Of a stretch of DNA of 34,580 nt, positions 6,662 through 34,580 are shown piece by piece. This DNA is from Sulfurimonadaceae bacterium. GTDB taxonomy: Bacteria; Campylobacterota; Campylobacteria; Campylobacterales; Sulfurimonadaceae. Position 1 is the stretch's first letter. The number at the start of each line of letters is the position of its first letter. The stretch spans positions 1-34,580 of the forward strand of contig JAQUHB010000028.1 in the NCBI GenBank assembly GCA_028683835.1. Reading direction: 5' to 3'. A model generated the notes under the pieces. That model had not been told where the DNA came from. It made no database searches and was given only the letters and a program-made list of their open reading frames with translations. Made by a program: the position numbers and the translations under genes.

Positions 6662-7684
6662 TCAAAAGAGAGAGCTTTGTTCTTTTGTTTTATAAAAATC
6701 TTTATACTTACCCATTACAGTTTTAAAATCATCAATTTCATTCGAACTATAACCATATTTGTATATTAACATTCCTCGGTAACTTTCTTCCCATTCTTCT
6801 AATTCATTATTAATAATCAAATTTTTTAATTTTCTTTTATAAAGCTCAGAATCATTAATTTTATTCTTTGAATGTAATATCAGCCAATCTATAAACTCAT
6901 CTATTCTTGCACTAGGTATCATACATTTTGATTCTACTTTTTCTAAATCTTTTGCCCATGAAAAAATAAATTGTCTATGTGCTTTGTCAAATATACAATA
7001 AATTTCTTCTGCAGTAATAATATTTATTTCTTTTAAGCCTCTATGAATACCTTCCAATAATTTTGAAGCATGTTTATGATTTGTACCAAATTTAGCATTT
7101 AATTCATTCATGTCTTTTTTTATTGTCCCTAATCTTCTATCAATTTTATTTGGCATTGAGTAATAGCGTAAATACATTTCATATATTTTGTAACCATATT
7201 TAGTTTTAAATTTTTTCGATAAAGTTAAATCAATTTTTGTATACCCTGCTTTTTCAATCATGTATTCCACAAAATTTTCTGAAATATTGATTTCTACAAG
7301 GTGCTGAGAATCCTTAAAAGATTTAACATCATTCAAAAAAGAGGTTAAAGCCCATAAGACCTTTTTTCCAGTTTTTAAATCATTAAAATCCCTTAGCTCG
7401 AAAGGTAATTTTAATTCTAATAAATAATTTTTAATCCTATCAACATAGTCATTATTATTAACTAATCCGAGTTTTTTCCTTAAATAAGAAAGTTCTAATT
7501 GCATTTTTGTTTCTTGTGTATCTTCATAAACTTGTAATATGACATCTAATGCTTTCATCGCACCAAGAGACAGTTCTCCATTTTTTGCATCAGTTATAGC
7601 ATTATTTTTTTTTAAAAAATCGAAATGCTGTTTTTTTGCTTTATCTAACAACGCAATCTTTTTATTGGTTTCTATATTGCTCAC
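6662..7684 (-). CDS. repB: Rep_3-family replication initiator
   Basis: 340 residues, GTG start with AGAGG 8 nt upstream. Two winged-helix parts typical of Rep_3 initiators: residues 30-150 (NGELSLGAMKALDVILQVYE, LSYLRKKLGL) and 160-260 (LTLSKKFKTKYGYKIYEMYL matching the family's 's-k-y-s-x-r-lYe-l' helix, then IKKDMNELNAKFGT as a DNA-reading helix). It should bind the iterons as a monomer and open the origin. It lies between the main array and two further iterons in its own promoter, the usual arrangement for autorepression by dimers. The DNA is very AT-rich compared with the small-gene operon. Confidence 0.92.
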   Translation of the reverse strand: MSNIETNKKIALLDKAKKQHFDFLKKNNAITDAKNGELSLGAMKALDVILQVYEDTQETKMQLELSYLRKKLGLVNNNDYVDRIKNYLLELKLPFELRDFNDLKTGKKVLWALTSFLNDVKSFKDSQHLVEINISENFVEYMIEKAGYTKIDLTLSKKFKTKYGYKIYEMYLRYYSMPNKIDRRLGTIKKDMNELNAKFGTNHKHASKLLEGIHRGLKEINIITAEEIYCIFDKAHRQFIFSWAKDLEKVESKCMIPSARIDEFIDWLILHSKNKINDSELYKRKLKNLIINNELEEWEESYRGMLIYKYGYSSNEIDDFKTVMGKYKDFYKTKEQSSLF

Positions 7685-7717
7685 AATAAGACCTCTTTTT
7701 ATGATTAAAAAATTATT

Positions 7718-7754
7718 GTCCTCATTATAGGAAAAAAATCCTCAATATGGGAAA
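7718..7754 (-). promoter_or_regulatory. Two iterons in the rep promoter
   Basis: GTCCTCATTATAGGAAA at 7718-7734 and ATCCTCAATATGGGAAA at 7738-7754, 34 bp before the rep GTG and the same orientation as the right origin block. Likely operator for Rep autoregulation. Confidence 0.7.
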
Positions 7755-7809
7755 TTTAATTAACAATATTACAAGTTAAGTTGTCAATTTTTATGAAATT
7801 CTAATAAAA

Positions 7810-7823
7810 TTGCTCATGAGCAA
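7810..7823. promoter_or_regulatory. parS: Palindrome upstream of parA (candidate parS/operator)
   Basis: TTGCTCATGAGCAA is a perfect 14-bp palindrome, lying at the -35 position relative to the extended -10 TGATATAAT (7837-7845) of parA. The same palindrome occurs inside parB (8850-8865). It could be the ParB binding site, the partition operator, or both. Confidence 0.6.
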
Positions 7824-7876
7824 CTTTTATAAAAAATGATATAATAAAAAATCTTAAAAATTTAAAAAGGCACAAT

Positions 7877-8527
7877 ATGCCAATTATTAGTGTGAGTCAC
7901 CAAAAAGGCGGTGTTGGTAAAAGTACTTTAGCTTATAACTTAGCAGTTGAATTATCTAAAAAGTTTGATGTTGAAGTAATTGATTTGGATGTTCAAGAAA
8001 CTGTTTCTTCTTATAATAGAATAAGAAAAATAATGGGACAAGAACCATTAAAAGTTAAAATATTCACAGATCATGATGAGTTAGTACATTATTTTAATAT
8101 AGTTGATGAAAATAAAATTGTTATTGTAGATAGTGGAGGATTTGATTCTGCTCTAAATAGATTATCTATCTTAGCAGCAGATTTTATATTAACTCCTGTG
8201 TCTTCAGAATTTACGGAACTACTAGGATTAGAAAAATATAATCAAATTCTTCAACAGATTTCTGAACAAACTGGAAACACAATTATTGCTAATGTTGTAT
8301 TGAATAAAATTAACCCCACTCAAAAACATTTTGATGAATTAATAGACTTTATTAATAATACAGACCATTTTATGAAATTAGACTCTGTCCTAAGGAGAAG
8401 AGTAGACTTTGCAAATAGTGTTGGACACGGCTTTAGTGTCAATGAACTTGATGCAAGTTCTGAATCATCAAAAGAAATGAACCAATTAGTACAAGAAATT
8501 ATTTCTAAAGGGATATTAAATGGCTAA
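7877..8527 (+). CDS. parA: ParA partition ATPase (small, type Ib-like)
   Basis: 216 residues, AAGG 6 nt before the ATG. Deviant Walker A KGGVGKST at residues 10-17 with the signature first Lys, Walker A' VIDLDVQ (34-40) and Walker B IVIVDSGGFD (81-90). No N-terminal HTH, so it resembles short ParA proteins that do not themselves repress the operon. It would form ATP-dependent assemblies on the nucleoid and move plasmid copies via ParB. The end overlaps parB by 8 nt, indicating one operon. Confidence 0.95.
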   Translation: MPIISVSHQKGGVGKSTLAYNLAVELSKKFDVEVIDLDVQETVSSYNRIRKIMGQEPLKVKIFTDHDELVHYFNIVDENKIVIVDSGGFDSALNRLSILAADFILTPVSSEFTELLGLEKYNQILQQISEQTGNTIIANVVLNKINPTQKHFDELIDFINNTDHFMKLDSVLRRRVDFANSVGHGFSVNELDASSESSKEMNQLVQEIISKGILNG

Positions 8528-9341
8528 AAAAAAATTAGATTTAAATTTAGCAAAACTAGTATCAAGTTCTGCACATTTTAATGAAAATAATACAGATGAG
8601 TTCAAAGGAAATGTCATTTCTAAAATTAATATCGATTTTTTACAAGAAAATCCATATCAACCAAGATTAGAAATAAATAGTGAATCTTTAACTGAACTTG
8701 CGGATTCAATTGAAAAAAATGGTTTATTACAACCAATTACAGTAGTAAAAATTAATGATCAAGAATATACAATCATTTATGGTCATAGAAGAACAGCTGC
8801 ATTAAAAAAACTTAACAAAAAATATATTGATGCAATCATTTTAGATGAAGTTGCTCATGAGCAACTTTCTTTATTACCTCTTATTGAAAACTTGCAAAGA
8901 GAGGATATGAATCCAATAGAAACTGCAATAGCAATTAAAAAAATATTAGATGAAAAAATTGTAAATTCTCAAGTAGACTTGGCTCATAAATTAGGTTATT
9001 CAACAAGTTGGCTTTCTAGAGTTCTCTCAATTTTAAAACTTCCAGAAGAGATTATCAAACAAATTAAAATTGATGGATACAATGATATTCATGTTTTATC
9101 TGCGCTTAATAAAATTCAATCAGATCATTTTGATGTATACAAAAAGATAACTAATTTAACAAGAACAGCGGCGATACACTATATTAAAAATCTTCAAGAC
9201 AATACAAAGATGGCATATATTGACAATAGAGTTAAACAGACTAAAAATAGTATAAATATCAATACAAAAGGTCTTTCTTTAACAAAACGCGATGAAGTTA
9301 ATAAAATACTTAATAAATTAAAAAGTATTCTTGATTCTTAA
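8520..9341 (+). CDS. parB: ParB partition DNA-binding protein
   Basis: 273 residues. ParB/Srx N-terminal domain with PYQPR (45-49), a GHRRTAALKKL motif (88-98; the CTP-binding GxRRxxA box), and ENLQREDMNPIETA (123-136). A helix-turn-helix (about 151-172, VDLAHKLGYSTSWLSRVLSI) and a short C-terminal dimerisation part follow. Family knowledge: ParB clamps load at parS and slide using CTP. A copy of the candidate parS palindrome lies within the gene and encodes residues 111-116. Confidence 0.95.
   Translation: MAKKKLDLNLAKLVSSSAHFNENNTDEFKGNVISKINIDFLQENPYQPRLEINSESLTELADSIEKNGLLQPITVVKINDQEYTIIYGHRRTAALKKLNKKYIDAIILDEVAHEQLSLLPLIENLQREDMNPIETAIAIKKILDEKIVNSQVDLAHKLGYSTSWLSRVLSILKLPEEIIKQIKIDGYNDIHVLSALNKIQSDHFDVYKKITNLTRTAAIHYIKNLQDNTKMAYIDNRVKQTKNSININTKGLSLTKRDEVNKILNKLKSILDS
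8850..8865. promoter_or_regulatory. parS: Palindrome inside parB (candidate parS)
   Basis: GTTGCTCATGAGCAAC, a perfect 16-bp palindrome containing the same 14 bp found upstream of parA. ParB-family parS sites are often palindromes of this length and can lie inside the par genes. Confidence 0.6.
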
Positions 9342-19549: not shown

Positions 19550-19560
19550 TAAATAACTCG

Positions 19561-19791
19561 ATAATCTGTTGGAATTGTCTTTATGTCTAAAATCTTATTG
19601 CCAAAGAGAAAGATCAAAAACAGCAAAATAAAATCATCAATGCTCTCAAAAACGGTTCTATCGTCCACTGGCAGCATATCAACTTCTATGGGGAATACGA
19701 CTTTACTGAGAAGCCGATTGAGGATGAATTCGATTTGGATGCAATAAAAGCGTTATCGGTGTCAATGACTTAGACAGAAATGGAAAAATGA
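19561..19791 (+). pseudogene. tnpA: 3' fragment of a Tn3 transposase gene
   Basis: In frame from 19561: IICWNCLYV, stop TAA, NLIAKEKDQKQQNKIINALK, NGSIVHWQHINFYGEYDFTE, and so on to TEMEK and TGA. It matches the C-terminus of the large transposase at 32587 residue for residue apart from a few changes, including two in-frame stops. The copy is inverted relative to 32587. It is cut at 19561, close to the higBA promoter. Confidence 0.85.
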
Positions 19792-19832
19792 TTTGTAGAG
19801 GCTCTGAATAGGAATTTAAGCAAAGTTTAAAA

Positions 19833-19890
19833 CGGATAGGGAAAAAAAATCCCTTTGTAGGTTTATACCCAAAGGAGATATAAACCTACA
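19833..19890. mobile_element. Tn3-type terminal repeats facing each other
   Basis: The sequence up to 19870 (reading leftward GGGTATAAACCTACAAAGGG) is a Tn3-type inverted repeat belonging to the tnpA tail on its left. A second end begins near 19872 and reads rightward with TATAAACCTACA (19879-19890), giving a perfect 12-bp inverted repeat with 19856-19867 and an 11-nt centre. So two transposon ends abut, with tnpA debris on one side and res-tnpR on the other. Confidence 0.6.
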
Positions 19891-22433: not shown

Positions 22434-22554
22434 AATTTATCCATACTAATATATTTATTATTTTACTTTCTCTTGCTTAAGCTGACGAGTTTAAAAACAC
22501 TTTTTATACTTTACATGTAAAGTTGTTTGAAGTAAATCTGTAGTCACAATGGAA

Positions 22555-22870
22555 GGTATAACGGTAAGCTGTATTTTGTTGTAGTGATATTAATCTATTT
22601 TGCTTTTTACAAATCAACTCTAGCGAAACAGTAGCATTGTAAGATGCTAACCATCTGTTTCTTGCTACCAGGTTGGGTTTACAAGCTACTTATATTACTA
22701 TAAATACTGGTGATCTCTTACACCGCCGTTTCACCCTTACCATCTGAAAAAGGCAATTCATTCTCTGTCGTACTTTCCCTCAAATTACTGCGGCCTTTGT
22801 TAAATCGAACCCTCTCTTACAGTAGCCAAGACTTTCTTCTTGAAAGATATTAGGTGTCAACCTTATACCC
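22555..22870 (-). ncRNA. rnpB: RNase P RNA-like gene (class A, divergent)
   Basis: On the minus strand the conserved landmarks occur in order: AGAAAGTC (22830-22837; usual GGAAAGTC), ACAGAGAA then TTGCC (22754-22768), GGTAAGGGTGAAACGGCGGT with GTAAGAGATCACCAG just after (about 22708-22742), TTGTAAACCCAACCTGGTAG and CAAG, a P15-like loop with GATGGTTAG (22647-22655), then AGATTAATATCACTACAACA and AGCTTACCG at the end. The ends pair as P1 (GGTATAA with TTATACC). Departures: ACAGAA is ACAAAA, and the outer part of P4 is weakened, though AAG/CTT with the bulged U remain. RNase P RNA removes tRNA 5' leaders. Functional status open. Confidence 0.85.
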
Positions 22871-22875
22871 ACGGT

Positions 22876-22884
22876 ATGATAACA
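22876..22884 (-). promoter_or_regulatory. Extended -10 promoter of the RNase P RNA-like gene
   Basis: Minus-strand TGTTATCAT places a start about 6-7 nt downstream, i.e. at the first P1 base near 22870, the expected RNA 5' end. Confidence 0.5.
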
Positions 22885-22941
22885 AAACTAGCTTGAGTTT
22901 AAAATATGCTTTACATGCTGGAGTATTCGAGATAGTTATTT

Positions 22942-22982: not shown

Positions 22983-24098
22983 TTAGTTATCCATGCTAGA
23001 TGTTGTGATAAAAAAAACTTTCGTAATTCCATTATTACGTACAGTTGTGATATAGACTACATCTAATTTATCAACATTAATTTTAAATCCTTGAAAAGAA
23101 TATGTTGGTTTGCAGGTATCTAGTAAGTCGCGCTTCCCAGTTTGTATATTGGTTACATAAATTTGTGTTGAATCATTCTCAAGAGTTACAACGATAGTTC
23201 CTACTTGTGAATCCATCCATTCTATGCTTGATGATATAGGACTAAAATGATTTTTTGATTGGACACATGTTCGATCATTCCATCTACCACTATATTTAGT
23301 ACATGTTCTTCCAAATGATCCATCACTGGAAATATTTACAAATTTTAAATTTTGTGTGTCTATATTAAATAAATAATAATTGTAATGAGTATCTATATCT
23401 AAAAAAGTTTTTACAACGGTTAATAGAGATAAAAGAACATTAGAATTTTTAATATTTTCTATAGATAAATGTCTGAGAAGAATAAGATTGGTGTCTGACA
23501 CATCACCATTTTGAAATTTTGAGATTTGATATTCTGATGGTAGATTGATGTAGTGGATACCAGTGGTATAATCAAAGAAAACTACTTTGTTATGATTATC
23601 TGCTAACAAAAATCCTTTAGAACCTAAGATTAATGTTTTTCCAGAAAATGATTCCTTAGATAAGGTAGTAACATGCCAAACATCTTTAGTAAAATTGACT
23701 TTTGCTGTAATAAAAGGTTCAATATTAGATCCAACTTTTAAAATTTTTATTAAATAATCTTCGTTTGCTTTGTGCACTAAATAATTGATAAAACCTGTTC
23801 GTTGGTTAAACATTACTTCCTCTATCTTGCCATCTTGATCAATATAATTTTCACCGTTGATACTAAATCCAAACTCTGTTTTTTCAAGAATAGTCGACGA
23901 AGAAGATTGTGAAAGAGATTGAATCTTCCTATGAAAATCTTCTGAAGAGATATTCCAAACTTTTTGGTTAGTAGATAAAATATTTAGCGATGGCATCATA
24001 CAGCCAGAAAATATTAATAAGACAAATATAATAAACAATTTGTTTAGATAATTTTTTTGTACTAAAAAAAATGCATATTTTGAAATTTTTATATTCAT
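22983..24098 (-). CDS. Lipoprotein of the metal efflux operon
   Basis: 371 residues; the start ATG overlaps the TGA of the pump gene (ATGA). A long basic N-terminus leads into a hydrophobic core and lipobox LLIFSGC (Cys 33), so it is probably a lipoprotein. The remainder is strand-rich with repeated short blocks (KTLILGSKGFLLADNHNKVV, VGTIVVTLENDSTQIYVTNI), suggesting a beta-propeller-like fold. No family recognised. It is not a standard part of CzcCBA/CznCBA; its position as the last gene suggests an auxiliary periplasmic role. Confidence 0.7.
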   Translation of the reverse strand: MNIKISKYAFFLVQKNYLNKLFIIFVLLIFSGCMMPSLNILSTNQKVWNISSEDFHRKIQSLSQSSSSTILEKTEFGFSINGENYIDQDGKIEEVMFNQRTGFINYLVHKANEDYLIKILKVGSNIEPFITAKVNFTKDVWHVTTLSKESFSGKTLILGSKGFLLADNHNKVVFFDYTTGIHYINLPSEYQISKFQNGDVSDTNLILLRHLSIENIKNSNVLLSLLTVVKTFLDIDTHYNYYLFNIDTQNLKFVNISSDGSFGRTCTKYSGRWNDRTCVQSKNHFSPISSSIEWMDSQVGTIVVTLENDSTQIYVTNIQTGKRDLLDTCKPTYSFQGFKINVDKLDVVYITTVRNNGITKVFFITTSSMDN

Positions 24099-31998: not shown

Positions 31999-32508
31999 TC
32001 ATACCTTTGAAGTAATCTCCACAGTTATATGTACTAGCTCTTCATGTATAGAAAGAGCATCACGAAATTCTTGAGGTATCATGCCATTTTGACTCTCTAA
32101 TGCGAGAATCACGGAATATTTTCCTTTACCAACACGCCAAACATGCAAATCACTAATGCGTGCATCTGGGTCTACCTCGGCTATTACTTCGCGAACCTCT
32201 TCAACAACGAGATCATCCATATTTGCATCAAGAAGCACTCTTCCCGTATCACGTACTAAACCAAATGCCCATGCACTCACTAAAAAAGCACCAACAATTC
32301 CCATAACAGGATCAAGCCATGATGCACCCCATAATTTTCCTGCAAACAAAGCGATAATTGCTAACACCGAAGTTGCCGCATCTGTTAAAACGTGGATATA
32401 TGCCGAACGAAGGTTTAAATCATGATGATGATCATGCTCGTGATGGTGATCATGATGATGATCTCCTAGTAGCCATGCACAAACAAGATTAACGATAAGA
32501 CCAACCAT
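31999..32508 (-). pseudogene. 5'-truncated cation diffusion facilitator (DmeF/CzcD-like)
   Basis: The frame begins at ATG 32508, directly at the Tn3 end, with MVGLIVNLVCAWLLGDHHHD, a His-rich loop (HHHDHHHEHDHHHD), then SAYIHVLTDAATSVLAIIAL with the metal-site HxxxD of helix 5, and a cytoplasmic domain (SDLHVWRVGKGKYSVILALE). Helices 1-3 and most of 4, with the first metal-site pair, are missing, so about half of a CDF (normally about 300 residues) is left. Function is unlikely. Ends with TGA at 31999. Confidence 0.85.
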
Positions 32509-32586
32509 GGGCCTCCACCTACAAAGGGATTTTTATTCCCATGCGTTTTAAACTTAGCTTAAATTAACTCTCAGAGCCCTTACAAA
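32509..32586. mobile_element. Tn3-type terminal repeat beside tnpA
   Basis: GGGCCTCCACCTACAAAGGG and the following AT-rich part up to the tnpA stop. The same stretch recurs, inverted, at 19792-19870 and, in the same orientation, at 31903-31985. It marks one end of the transposon that continues past the window. Confidence 0.7.
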
Positions 32587-34580
32587 TCATTTTTCCATTT
32601 CAGTCTCTCTCATTGATACCGATAACGCTTTTATCGCTTCCATATCAAATTCATCTTCAATCGGCTTTTTTGTAAAGTCATATTCACCATAAAAGTTGAT
32701 ATGCTGCCAGTGGACGATAGAACCATTTTTGAGAGCATTGATGATTTTGTTTTGCTGCTCGGGATCTTTCTCTTTGGCAATAAGATTTGAAAAGTAAAGA
32801 TAGTTCCAGCAAATGATTGAGTTTTGAATCAGGCGAAGAGCATTGCTGGCAATATCTTGCTCTTCTTTGGTGGCATAGAAATATTCACCACTGTTTCCGA
32901 AAAAAACTGCTTTGGAAAATTTGTTTGCGCTTTCCACTTTATTGAGCTGTTTTTCAATCTGCTGCCGCAAGCTAACGTCGTCGATATAGTTGAGTAAAAA
33001 CTGTGTCTTGATAATACGCCCAAATTCTCTAAGCGCCTGATAGAGTTTATGTTTACGTGAATAGGACGTTAACCGTTTGAGAAGCTGTGATGCACTGACT
33101 CGGCGTTCTTTGATCGTAATCACCAGTCGGAGTATCTGCTCCCACTGCTCTTCGATTATCTGCGTGTTGATCTGTTTGATAGGCAAAAGTGTATAGCCGT
33201 TTTCTTTATAGAGTTTTTTAGGTTCAAATGCATAGAGCTGCTGATCTTTAAAGTTTTTAATACGAGGTGCAAACTCAAATCCTAAAAGATGCGTCAATGC
33301 AAATATCACTTCACTGTATCCAAATGTATCGGTAGAGTGGATATCACTTTGTATTACATCCTGATGCATCAATCCATCTATGACATATGCAGCTTCACGT
33401 TCACTCGCATTGATTACGGTCGTATAAAATAGGCGGTGAGATTCATCCACAAAGCTGTATCTGCTCACACCTCTTCCAAGTCCAAAGTATTTGAATGAAT
33501 AACCTGAATTGAGTGAATCGACACTAAGATTAAATTTTTGTCCATCGCTTGCAGTATGGTTCTTATTAGGATTAGATCGAAACAGTTTTGGTATATCAAG
33601 ATTTTCAGTAAATACCAGTACGGCATCATTAGCTTCTTGCAACATATCGGATGAGAGATACCATGTACGAATATGATCGATGTCATGAACTGATATTCCT
33701 TTGGAAATTTTTGCCATCTTTGGGATACTGATGTTACATCCATATCCTATGAGTGAAGCATAGAGTGCATTAGGCTTTGGAGCACGGTGATGCAAAGTCT
33801 TAGTGTGATGTAAAAACTTTGCACTATAGATTGATAGATTATCGATTTGTCGTAATACATCGATCAGAGGAATAAATCTTTCTTTGGGCAGATATACACC
33901 TATGGTATCATCGTTCTCATCTTTTTCAACCTTTGGAGTCTGTAATACAAATGACCCATCTCCTTTTGCATGAAAAAAAGAGTTGATCCCTTTTACAATG
34001 TTGCCATTGACGCTTCGGTAAATTCCATCTAGTTCACCTTTTAGATCACCGAGTGTGCTCGTAGGAGTATGCAACAGTTTCATATGATGCTGCTTGAGAT
34101 ATGAATCTTTATTTCGTTCATATTCTTCACTATCAATGAGATAATCGTTAAATGCTCGAAAGCGGTAAGAGTTTTTGAGATTCAGTGATCCAGATTTGAT
34201 TCCCTCTGCAATAGCGATAAAAAGAAACATCTTATAAAGAGAGATTCTAAACGGTTCATCTACACTGGTTTGAATTAGGGAGTTCTTTTCTTCCTCTGCC
34301 AAAAACTCCATAGGTAGTTTAGCAGTGACATTTGCTCCGGTTGTTTTAAAAAACTCAATCGCTTTTATTATCGATTTGTCAGATGATTTTTCATCGAACT
34401 CTAACGATTTGATGATATCTGAGACTCTGTTCTGAAGTTTGCGGGAGCGAGCTTCTAAAATAGAGTGATATCCGGTATGGTCTTCAAGCTCCTCGTGTGA
34501 GTCAAGGTATGGTTTCTTCTCCTCTTCATCAGCGATCATAGAATCGATATGTGCGCTAATGAGAGAAATTTTATCTCTAA
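32587..34580 (-). CDS. tnpA: Tn3-family transposase, N-terminus outside window
   Basis: About 663 C-terminal residues; the frame is open to the window end (upstream RDKISLISAHIDS), so the family's usual length of about 950-1000 is plausible. DDE region: SVHDIDHIRTWYLSSDMLQE, ASDGQKF (first Asp), HSTDTFGYSEVIFALTHLLG (second Asp), and ALREFGRIIKT/LNKVESANKFSKAVFFGNSG near the Glu. It performs replicative transposition between the terminal repeats. The tail is identical in outline to the broken copy at 19561. Confidence 0.93.
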   Translation of the reverse strand, partial: RDKISLISAHIDSMIADEEEKKPYLDSHEELEDHTGYHSILEARSRKLQNRVSDIIKSLEFDEKSSDKSIIKAIEFFKTTGANVTAKLPMEFLAEEEKNSLIQTSVDEPFRISLYKMFLFIAIAEGIKSGSLNLKNSYRFRAFNDYLIDSEEYERNKDSYLKQHHMKLLHTPTSTLGDLKGELDGIYRSVNGNIVKGINSFFHAKGDGSFVLQTPKVEKDENDDTIGVYLPKERFIPLIDVLRQIDNLSIYSAKFLHHTKTLHHRAPKPNALYASLIGYGCNISIPKMAKISKGISVHDIDHIRTWYLSSDMLQEANDAVLVFTENLDIPKLFRSNPNKNHTASDGQKFNLSVDSLNSGYSFKYFGLGRGVSRYSFVDESHRLFYTTVINASEREAAYVIDGLMHQDVIQSDIHSTDTFGYSEVIFALTHLLGFEFAPRIKNFKDQQLYAFEPKKLYKENGYTLLPIKQINTQIIEEQWEQILRLVITIKERRVSASQLLKRLTSYSRKHKLYQALREFGRIIKTQFLLNYIDDVSLRQQIEKQLNKVESANKFSKAVFFGNSGEYFYATKEEQDIASNALRLIQNSIICWNYLYFSNLIAKEKDPEQQNKIINALKNGSIVHWQHINFYGEYDFTKKPIEDEFDMEAIKALSVSMRETEMEK

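Follow-up and report, generated by a model that had tools for sequence, protein, structure and literature searches.

A preliminary description of this locus placed an RNase P RNA-like gene in plasmid-type, transposon-rich DNA and offered three options for it, namely a specialised RNA, a regulatory mimic or a decaying copy. The question is which of these the gene is. We considered the window (the whole stretch of 34,580 nt, which is the whole of contig C53 in a genome of 2.51 Mb and 88 contigs, here G000) together with the chromosomal rnpB of the same genome (G000chr) and seven other genomes of the genus. The evidence on the plasmid copy comes from one plasmid sequence in one draft genome, and the negative results given below apply to the collections searched.

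Identity and setting of the gene

Infernal gave a full-length match to the class A RNase P RNA family of Rfam (RF00010) at 22549-22871 on the minus strand, with 146.2 bits, an E value of 2.8e-45 and model positions 1-367. The bounds of 22555-22870 read earlier from the letters alone are nearly exact, and the covariance-model score is not low, the gathering cut-off of RF00010 being 100 bits. By this full-length score above the cut-off and by its homology to known rnpB genes the plasmid RNA belongs by descent to class A RNase P RNA. It may be noted that a score above the Rfam cut-off is no proof of a working ribozyme. All main helices are still recognisable. If the RNA is numbered so that nt k is window position 22872-k, its P1 is closed by 7 Watson-Crick pairs between the 5′ strand GGUAUAA (nt 3-9, 22863-22869) and the 3′ strand UUAUACC (nt 311-317, 22555-22561), which bears out the self-consistent helix proposed for it; a C-to-U change at nt 7 has its compensating change at nt 313. 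The P12 region (22742-22759) is short as in two other genomes (G005 and G006), lacking the insert of about 107 nt found in G000chr. Just upstream of the RNA lies an intact promoter-like site (22876-22903, minus strand) consisting of a weak -35 (TTTAAA), 16 nt and an extended -10 (TG-T-TATCAT, 22881-22876). The site is homologous to the region upstream of the chromosomal rnpB, and the extended -10, already recognised in the preliminary description, is also conserved ahead of the chromosomal rnpB genes of the genus. Homology to the chromosomal gene as a whole runs from about 33 nt upstream of the RNA, promoter included, to the end of the 3′ strand of P1.

The plasmid-type and transposon-rich character of the DNA is confirmed by Pfam matches. 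Plasmid functions occupy 6662-9341, with a Rep3 initiator (6662-7684, minus strand), ParA (7877-8527, plus strand) and ParB (8520-9341, plus strand), and genes for a Tn3 transposase and a resolvase are on the same contig. No exact overlap was found when the contig ends were compared. As had been said, the RNA lies between an amino-acid permease and a metal efflux operon, the latter of CzcCBA type and closed on the side of the RNA by a 371-aa protein. This protein (22983-24098), a probable lipoprotein, matched nothing in Pfam and had no relatives in PLSDB. In G006 a related protein is encoded after a two-component system (L119:2372-3391). Two Tn3-type ends in inverted orientation, with tips at 19871 and 32508, enclose 12.6 kb that include the RNA. 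On the left there is a remnant of a Tn3-type transposase end and terminal repeat (19555-19871, plus strand), and on the right a Tn3-family transposase (PF01526) with terminal repeat that runs off the contig end (32508-34578, minus strand). The remnant forms an inverted repeat with 32508-32823 over 301 nt (84%) and 33 nt (85%). The tip at 32508 removes the 5′ part of a cation-efflux gene (31999-32508).

A second rnpB and its descent

A normal rnpB was found elsewhere in the same genome, on contig C57 (231.2 bits with RF00010), where it adjoins a TetR gene, NuoE/NuoF and 2-oxoglutarate oxidoreductase genes. With this normal and better-scoring gene present, the plasmid RNA is a second copy, as the preliminary description had supposed. 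These operons, together with the make-up of the order, suggest a campylobacterotal host, probably of the Sulfurimonadaceae. No second rnpB was found among the seven other genomes of the genus, five of which have one full copy; the G006 gene is cut short by a contig end, and that of G005 is divided between two contigs.

The chromosomal rnpB of G005, a sister species, appears split by an insertion element. One part is on contig C25 (L065:1-193), which ends at ...CGGCGGTG, and the other on C96 (L066:174-345). The first 173 nt of C96 are insertion-element-like TGGCACA repeats, after which comes CGGTGTAAGAG, an arrangement that would result if an element had entered the gene and duplicated 4-5 bp of its target. 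No intact rnpB was found in the G005 assembly. The P12 insert of G000chr (L001:1695-1821) is related to an insert in G007 (L006), and portions of it are present at other places in G000, G001, G003, G005 and G007. Going by this recurrence, it looks like a small dispersed repeat residing inside the ribozyme.

On comparison with the chromosomal rnpB of its own genome, the plasmid RNA has 96% identity over nt 130-318 and 83% over nt 11-112. Over the 5′ part the identity is 83-86%, which resembles a species-level difference and could be taken to favour a functional rnpB of a different species that arrived with the plasmid or through assembly contamination (2.85%). We hold this to be very improbable, as the plasmid copy has derived states common only to G000 and G005, and most of its remaining differences are private, many of them at family-invariant sites. 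The lineage-specific state ACAGAGAAT is common to G000chr and G005, while ACAGAGAAU is otherwise confined to G000 and G005 and GGCCGCAGUAAU to G000, G005 and G006. At three P12 sites the plasmid copy agrees with G005 and G006, against G000 with its insert. From these shared states and the siding in P12 it follows that the RNA was copied from the rnpB of this lineage, or of a near relative, in insert-free form. The private substitutions on the plasmid copy number 36-37, as compared to only 9 differences between the chromosomal genes of G000 and G005.

Relatives of the copy were also sought outside the genus. With the plasmid RNA as query, a distant DNA search of PLSDB returned one match, a Fusobacterium record of chromosomal size, and no plasmid homologue. 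Two other rnpB queries matched rnpB in PLSDB records filed as plasmids; the four inspected have a chromosomal-type context (rluD, coaD, smpB, rsmI, ftsL, oor operon), look like chromosome pieces and were rejected as true plasmid copies. A genome-wide pattern search with the plasmid-specific 5′ sequence gave 4 scattered matches in unrelated taxa, which is about chance level. Two genomes with two RF00010 matches each were likewise set aside: the TetR/oor flanks of both G123 copies are of chromosomal type and suggest a mixed bin, and in G180 the flanks differ, both copies are near contig ends and the genome is 80% complete, so that contamination is likely.

The P4 core and the pattern of mutation

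P4 is the catalytic core of RNase P RNA. In the plasmid copy its 5′ strand (22826-22834) carries U for G at 22828 (nt 44), a column that does not vary among 28 members of the family, and its 3′ strand (22566-22573) has CC changed to UA at 22573-22572. As a result the outer three pairs are U-C, G-A and G-U in place of the three G-C pairs of the four chromosomal relatives compared, and 6 of the 8 pairs stand (two mismatches) as against all 8 in these relatives. The broken pairs are private to the plasmid copy, which thus does not have the intact P4 of a functional RNase P RNA. The helix is made by the conserved regions CR-I and CR-V in the Bcheck account of these regions (PMC2996960). Over the molecule as a whole, 14 of the 158 columns that are invariant in the 28 family members are altered, the P4 core helix included, whereas no other sequence exceeded 6 changed invariant columns in a leave-one-out check. 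The near-invariant nucleotides of functional RNase P RNAs are therefore not all retained. The divergence at such places noted earlier is real and private for outer P4, but its other instance, ACAGAA to ACAAAA, does not hold: ACAAAA is also found in G000chr and in the chromosomal rnpB genes of G001, G003 and G005, and is the usual state of the genus.

G000chr and G005 served to reconstruct the ancestor, on which substitutions equal in number and kind to those of the plasmid copy were placed randomly 20,000 times. The plasmid copy has lost 11 of the 90 ancestral base pairs, where random placement gives 11.5 ± 2.6 (P = 0.51), and has gained one compensatory pair (nt 7-313, in P1) against a random mean of 0.58. 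Chromosomal relatives with 31-35 substitutions have lost only 3-4 pairs and have 5-7 compensatory ones. Compensation was examined on the single plasmid sequence, no plasmid homologues having been found for the comparison. The compensatory change that marks purifying selection on structure is not seen here, and the mutations are spread as if neutral, as in a pseudogene. At invariant sites there are 12 of 36 substitutions where 17 are expected if random (P = 0.05); as this deficit is only marginal, any remaining constraint is weak at most, and weak constraint, present or past, may have acted on the copy. The minimum free energy of the plasmid RNA is -73.4 kcal/mol, against -90 to -101 kcal/mol for the comparison RNAs. 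At four-fold sites G000 and G005 are 26% divergent, a value that spans two branches, and the plasmid branch of about 11% is thus of the order of the neutral rate.

The changes are not evenly distributed along the RNA. There are 26 private changes in the 129 nt of the 5′ part and 10 in the 194 nt of the 3′ part (P = 4e-5), and the chromosomal rnpB copies likewise change faster in the 5′ part. In the 3′ part 3 of the 10 changes are at invariant sites, which is not significantly below random (P = 0.22), and for this reason the small number of changes looks like youth more than constraint. This suggests that the 3′ part may have been overwritten later by the chromosomal gene (partial gene conversion). 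Very divergent RNase P RNAs that presumably work are known from CPR bacteria (PMC8172020), and hence it is the mutation pattern, and not the covariance score, that carries the argument for decay.

Competing readings and known systems

Of the three options with which we began, the data favour decay, as pair loss is at the random level and there is a single compensatory pair against the 5-7 of the chromosomal relatives. We consider, with a probability of roughly 0.8, that the plasmid RNA is a duplicate of rnpB which is now a pseudogene or nearly so and has probably lost its activity, though perhaps it is still transcribed. This reading builds directly on the second copy, the shared descent, the inherited promoter, the near-neutral mutation pattern and the 5′/3′ asymmetry, and from these we infer the act of duplication itself. 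The chromosomal rnpB of the lineage, promoter included, would have been copied onto the plasmid or its transposon cargo region. With RNase P RNA still coming from the chromosomal gene, the copy would have been released from selection; near-random mutations would then have accumulated, breaking P4 and other helices such that a proper P4 core could no longer form, while transcription perhaps continued from the inherited promoter. The simplest account of why the 3′ 60% looks much younger than the 5′ 40% would be that the chromosomal gene later converted part of the copy, over a tract reaching from the P12 insert to the point where homology ends. The points against decay are the score of 146 bits, the recognisable main helices, the intact promoter, the closed P1 with its one compensatory change, the slight deficit of changes at invariant sites and the precedent of very divergent RNase P RNAs that can function.

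These same features, i.e. a full-length fold with promoter and P1 intact, would also suit a functional second RNase P RNA, serving to increase dosage or to secure tRNA processing for the host of the plasmid, and a spare copy could matter in a genus where the rnpB of a sister species appears interrupted. Such a role is nonetheless quite improbable given the outer P4 mismatches, the 14 changed invariant columns, pair loss at the neutral level and a normal chromosomal rnpB in the genome; moreover, no tRNA genes were found on the plasmid, and no RnpA was seen on inspection of the listed ORFs of the window. A specialised or regulatory RNA that has given up normal catalysis on purpose, as a decoy for RnpA or pre-tRNA or with altered substrate choice, would fit a core P4 that is altered while promoter, P1 and 3′ part are better kept. 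We judge it quite improbable, since pair loss is random-like across the molecule with no cluster of compensation, the RNA was found in one genome only, and in the better-kept 3′ part, too, changes at invariant sites are not significantly rarer than chance would give. There is a very slim chance that the plasmid RNA is transcribed and works as an RNase P RNA with altered catalysis; it might, for instance, compete dominantly for RnpA or pre-tRNA and so tune the tRNA supply of the host in favour of the plasmid. If the RNA were active after all, it would be, to our knowledge, the first plasmid-supplied RNase P RNA. As a decaying duplicate, the plasmid rnpB would be a natural record of the fate of this gene once selection is lifted.

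Other rnpB loci have viral or phage-like surroundings. Class A RNase P RNA is present in full length, at 173-308 bits, on very large IMG/VR viral contigs (190-497 kb for the contigs with coordinates given here), at L082:4030-4350, L103:6074-6431, L106:8153-8517, L077:12670-13008, L111:3911-4249 and L112:536-887, and further on L088, L090, L096, L098 and L109. These copies are mostly within long tRNA gene arrays, flush against tRNA genes in L112, and some of their neighbours match phage protein families of unknown function. They are possibly phage-encoded, the phage assignment of the contigs being putative, and no report of rnpB on such contigs was found in the literature searched. In Sulfurovum mangrovi (NZ_CP087125.1, L127:5960-7586) an intact rnpB is followed, about 200 nt further downstream, by a site-specific integrase gene and phage-like small genes, and may be an integration site; a quick look found no repeat of the rnpB 3′ end within the 12-kb stretch.

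No account of a bacterial plasmid with an additional, isolated rnpB came up in the literature searched. The PLSDB records resemble our case in that rnpB is on a record called a plasmid, but the four inspected are not isolated extra copies. For RNase P RNA, the passages of the Bcheck paper on extra copies give pseudogenes of vertebrates and duplications in 20 metazoans, and describe duplications for eukaryotes only (PMC2996960). The plasmid RNA is like the vertebrate pseudogenes, as portrayed there, in being an extra copy from a functional gene that is apparently losing constraint, and unlike them in being bacterial, on a plasmid and still with its promoter. With the chromosomal class A rnpB of its own genus (RF00010) it shares the order of conserved regions, the helices, the promoter and P1, and it differs from it in its plasmid location, the broken outer P4 pairs, the 11 lost pairs and the absence of the P12 insert of the host's gene.
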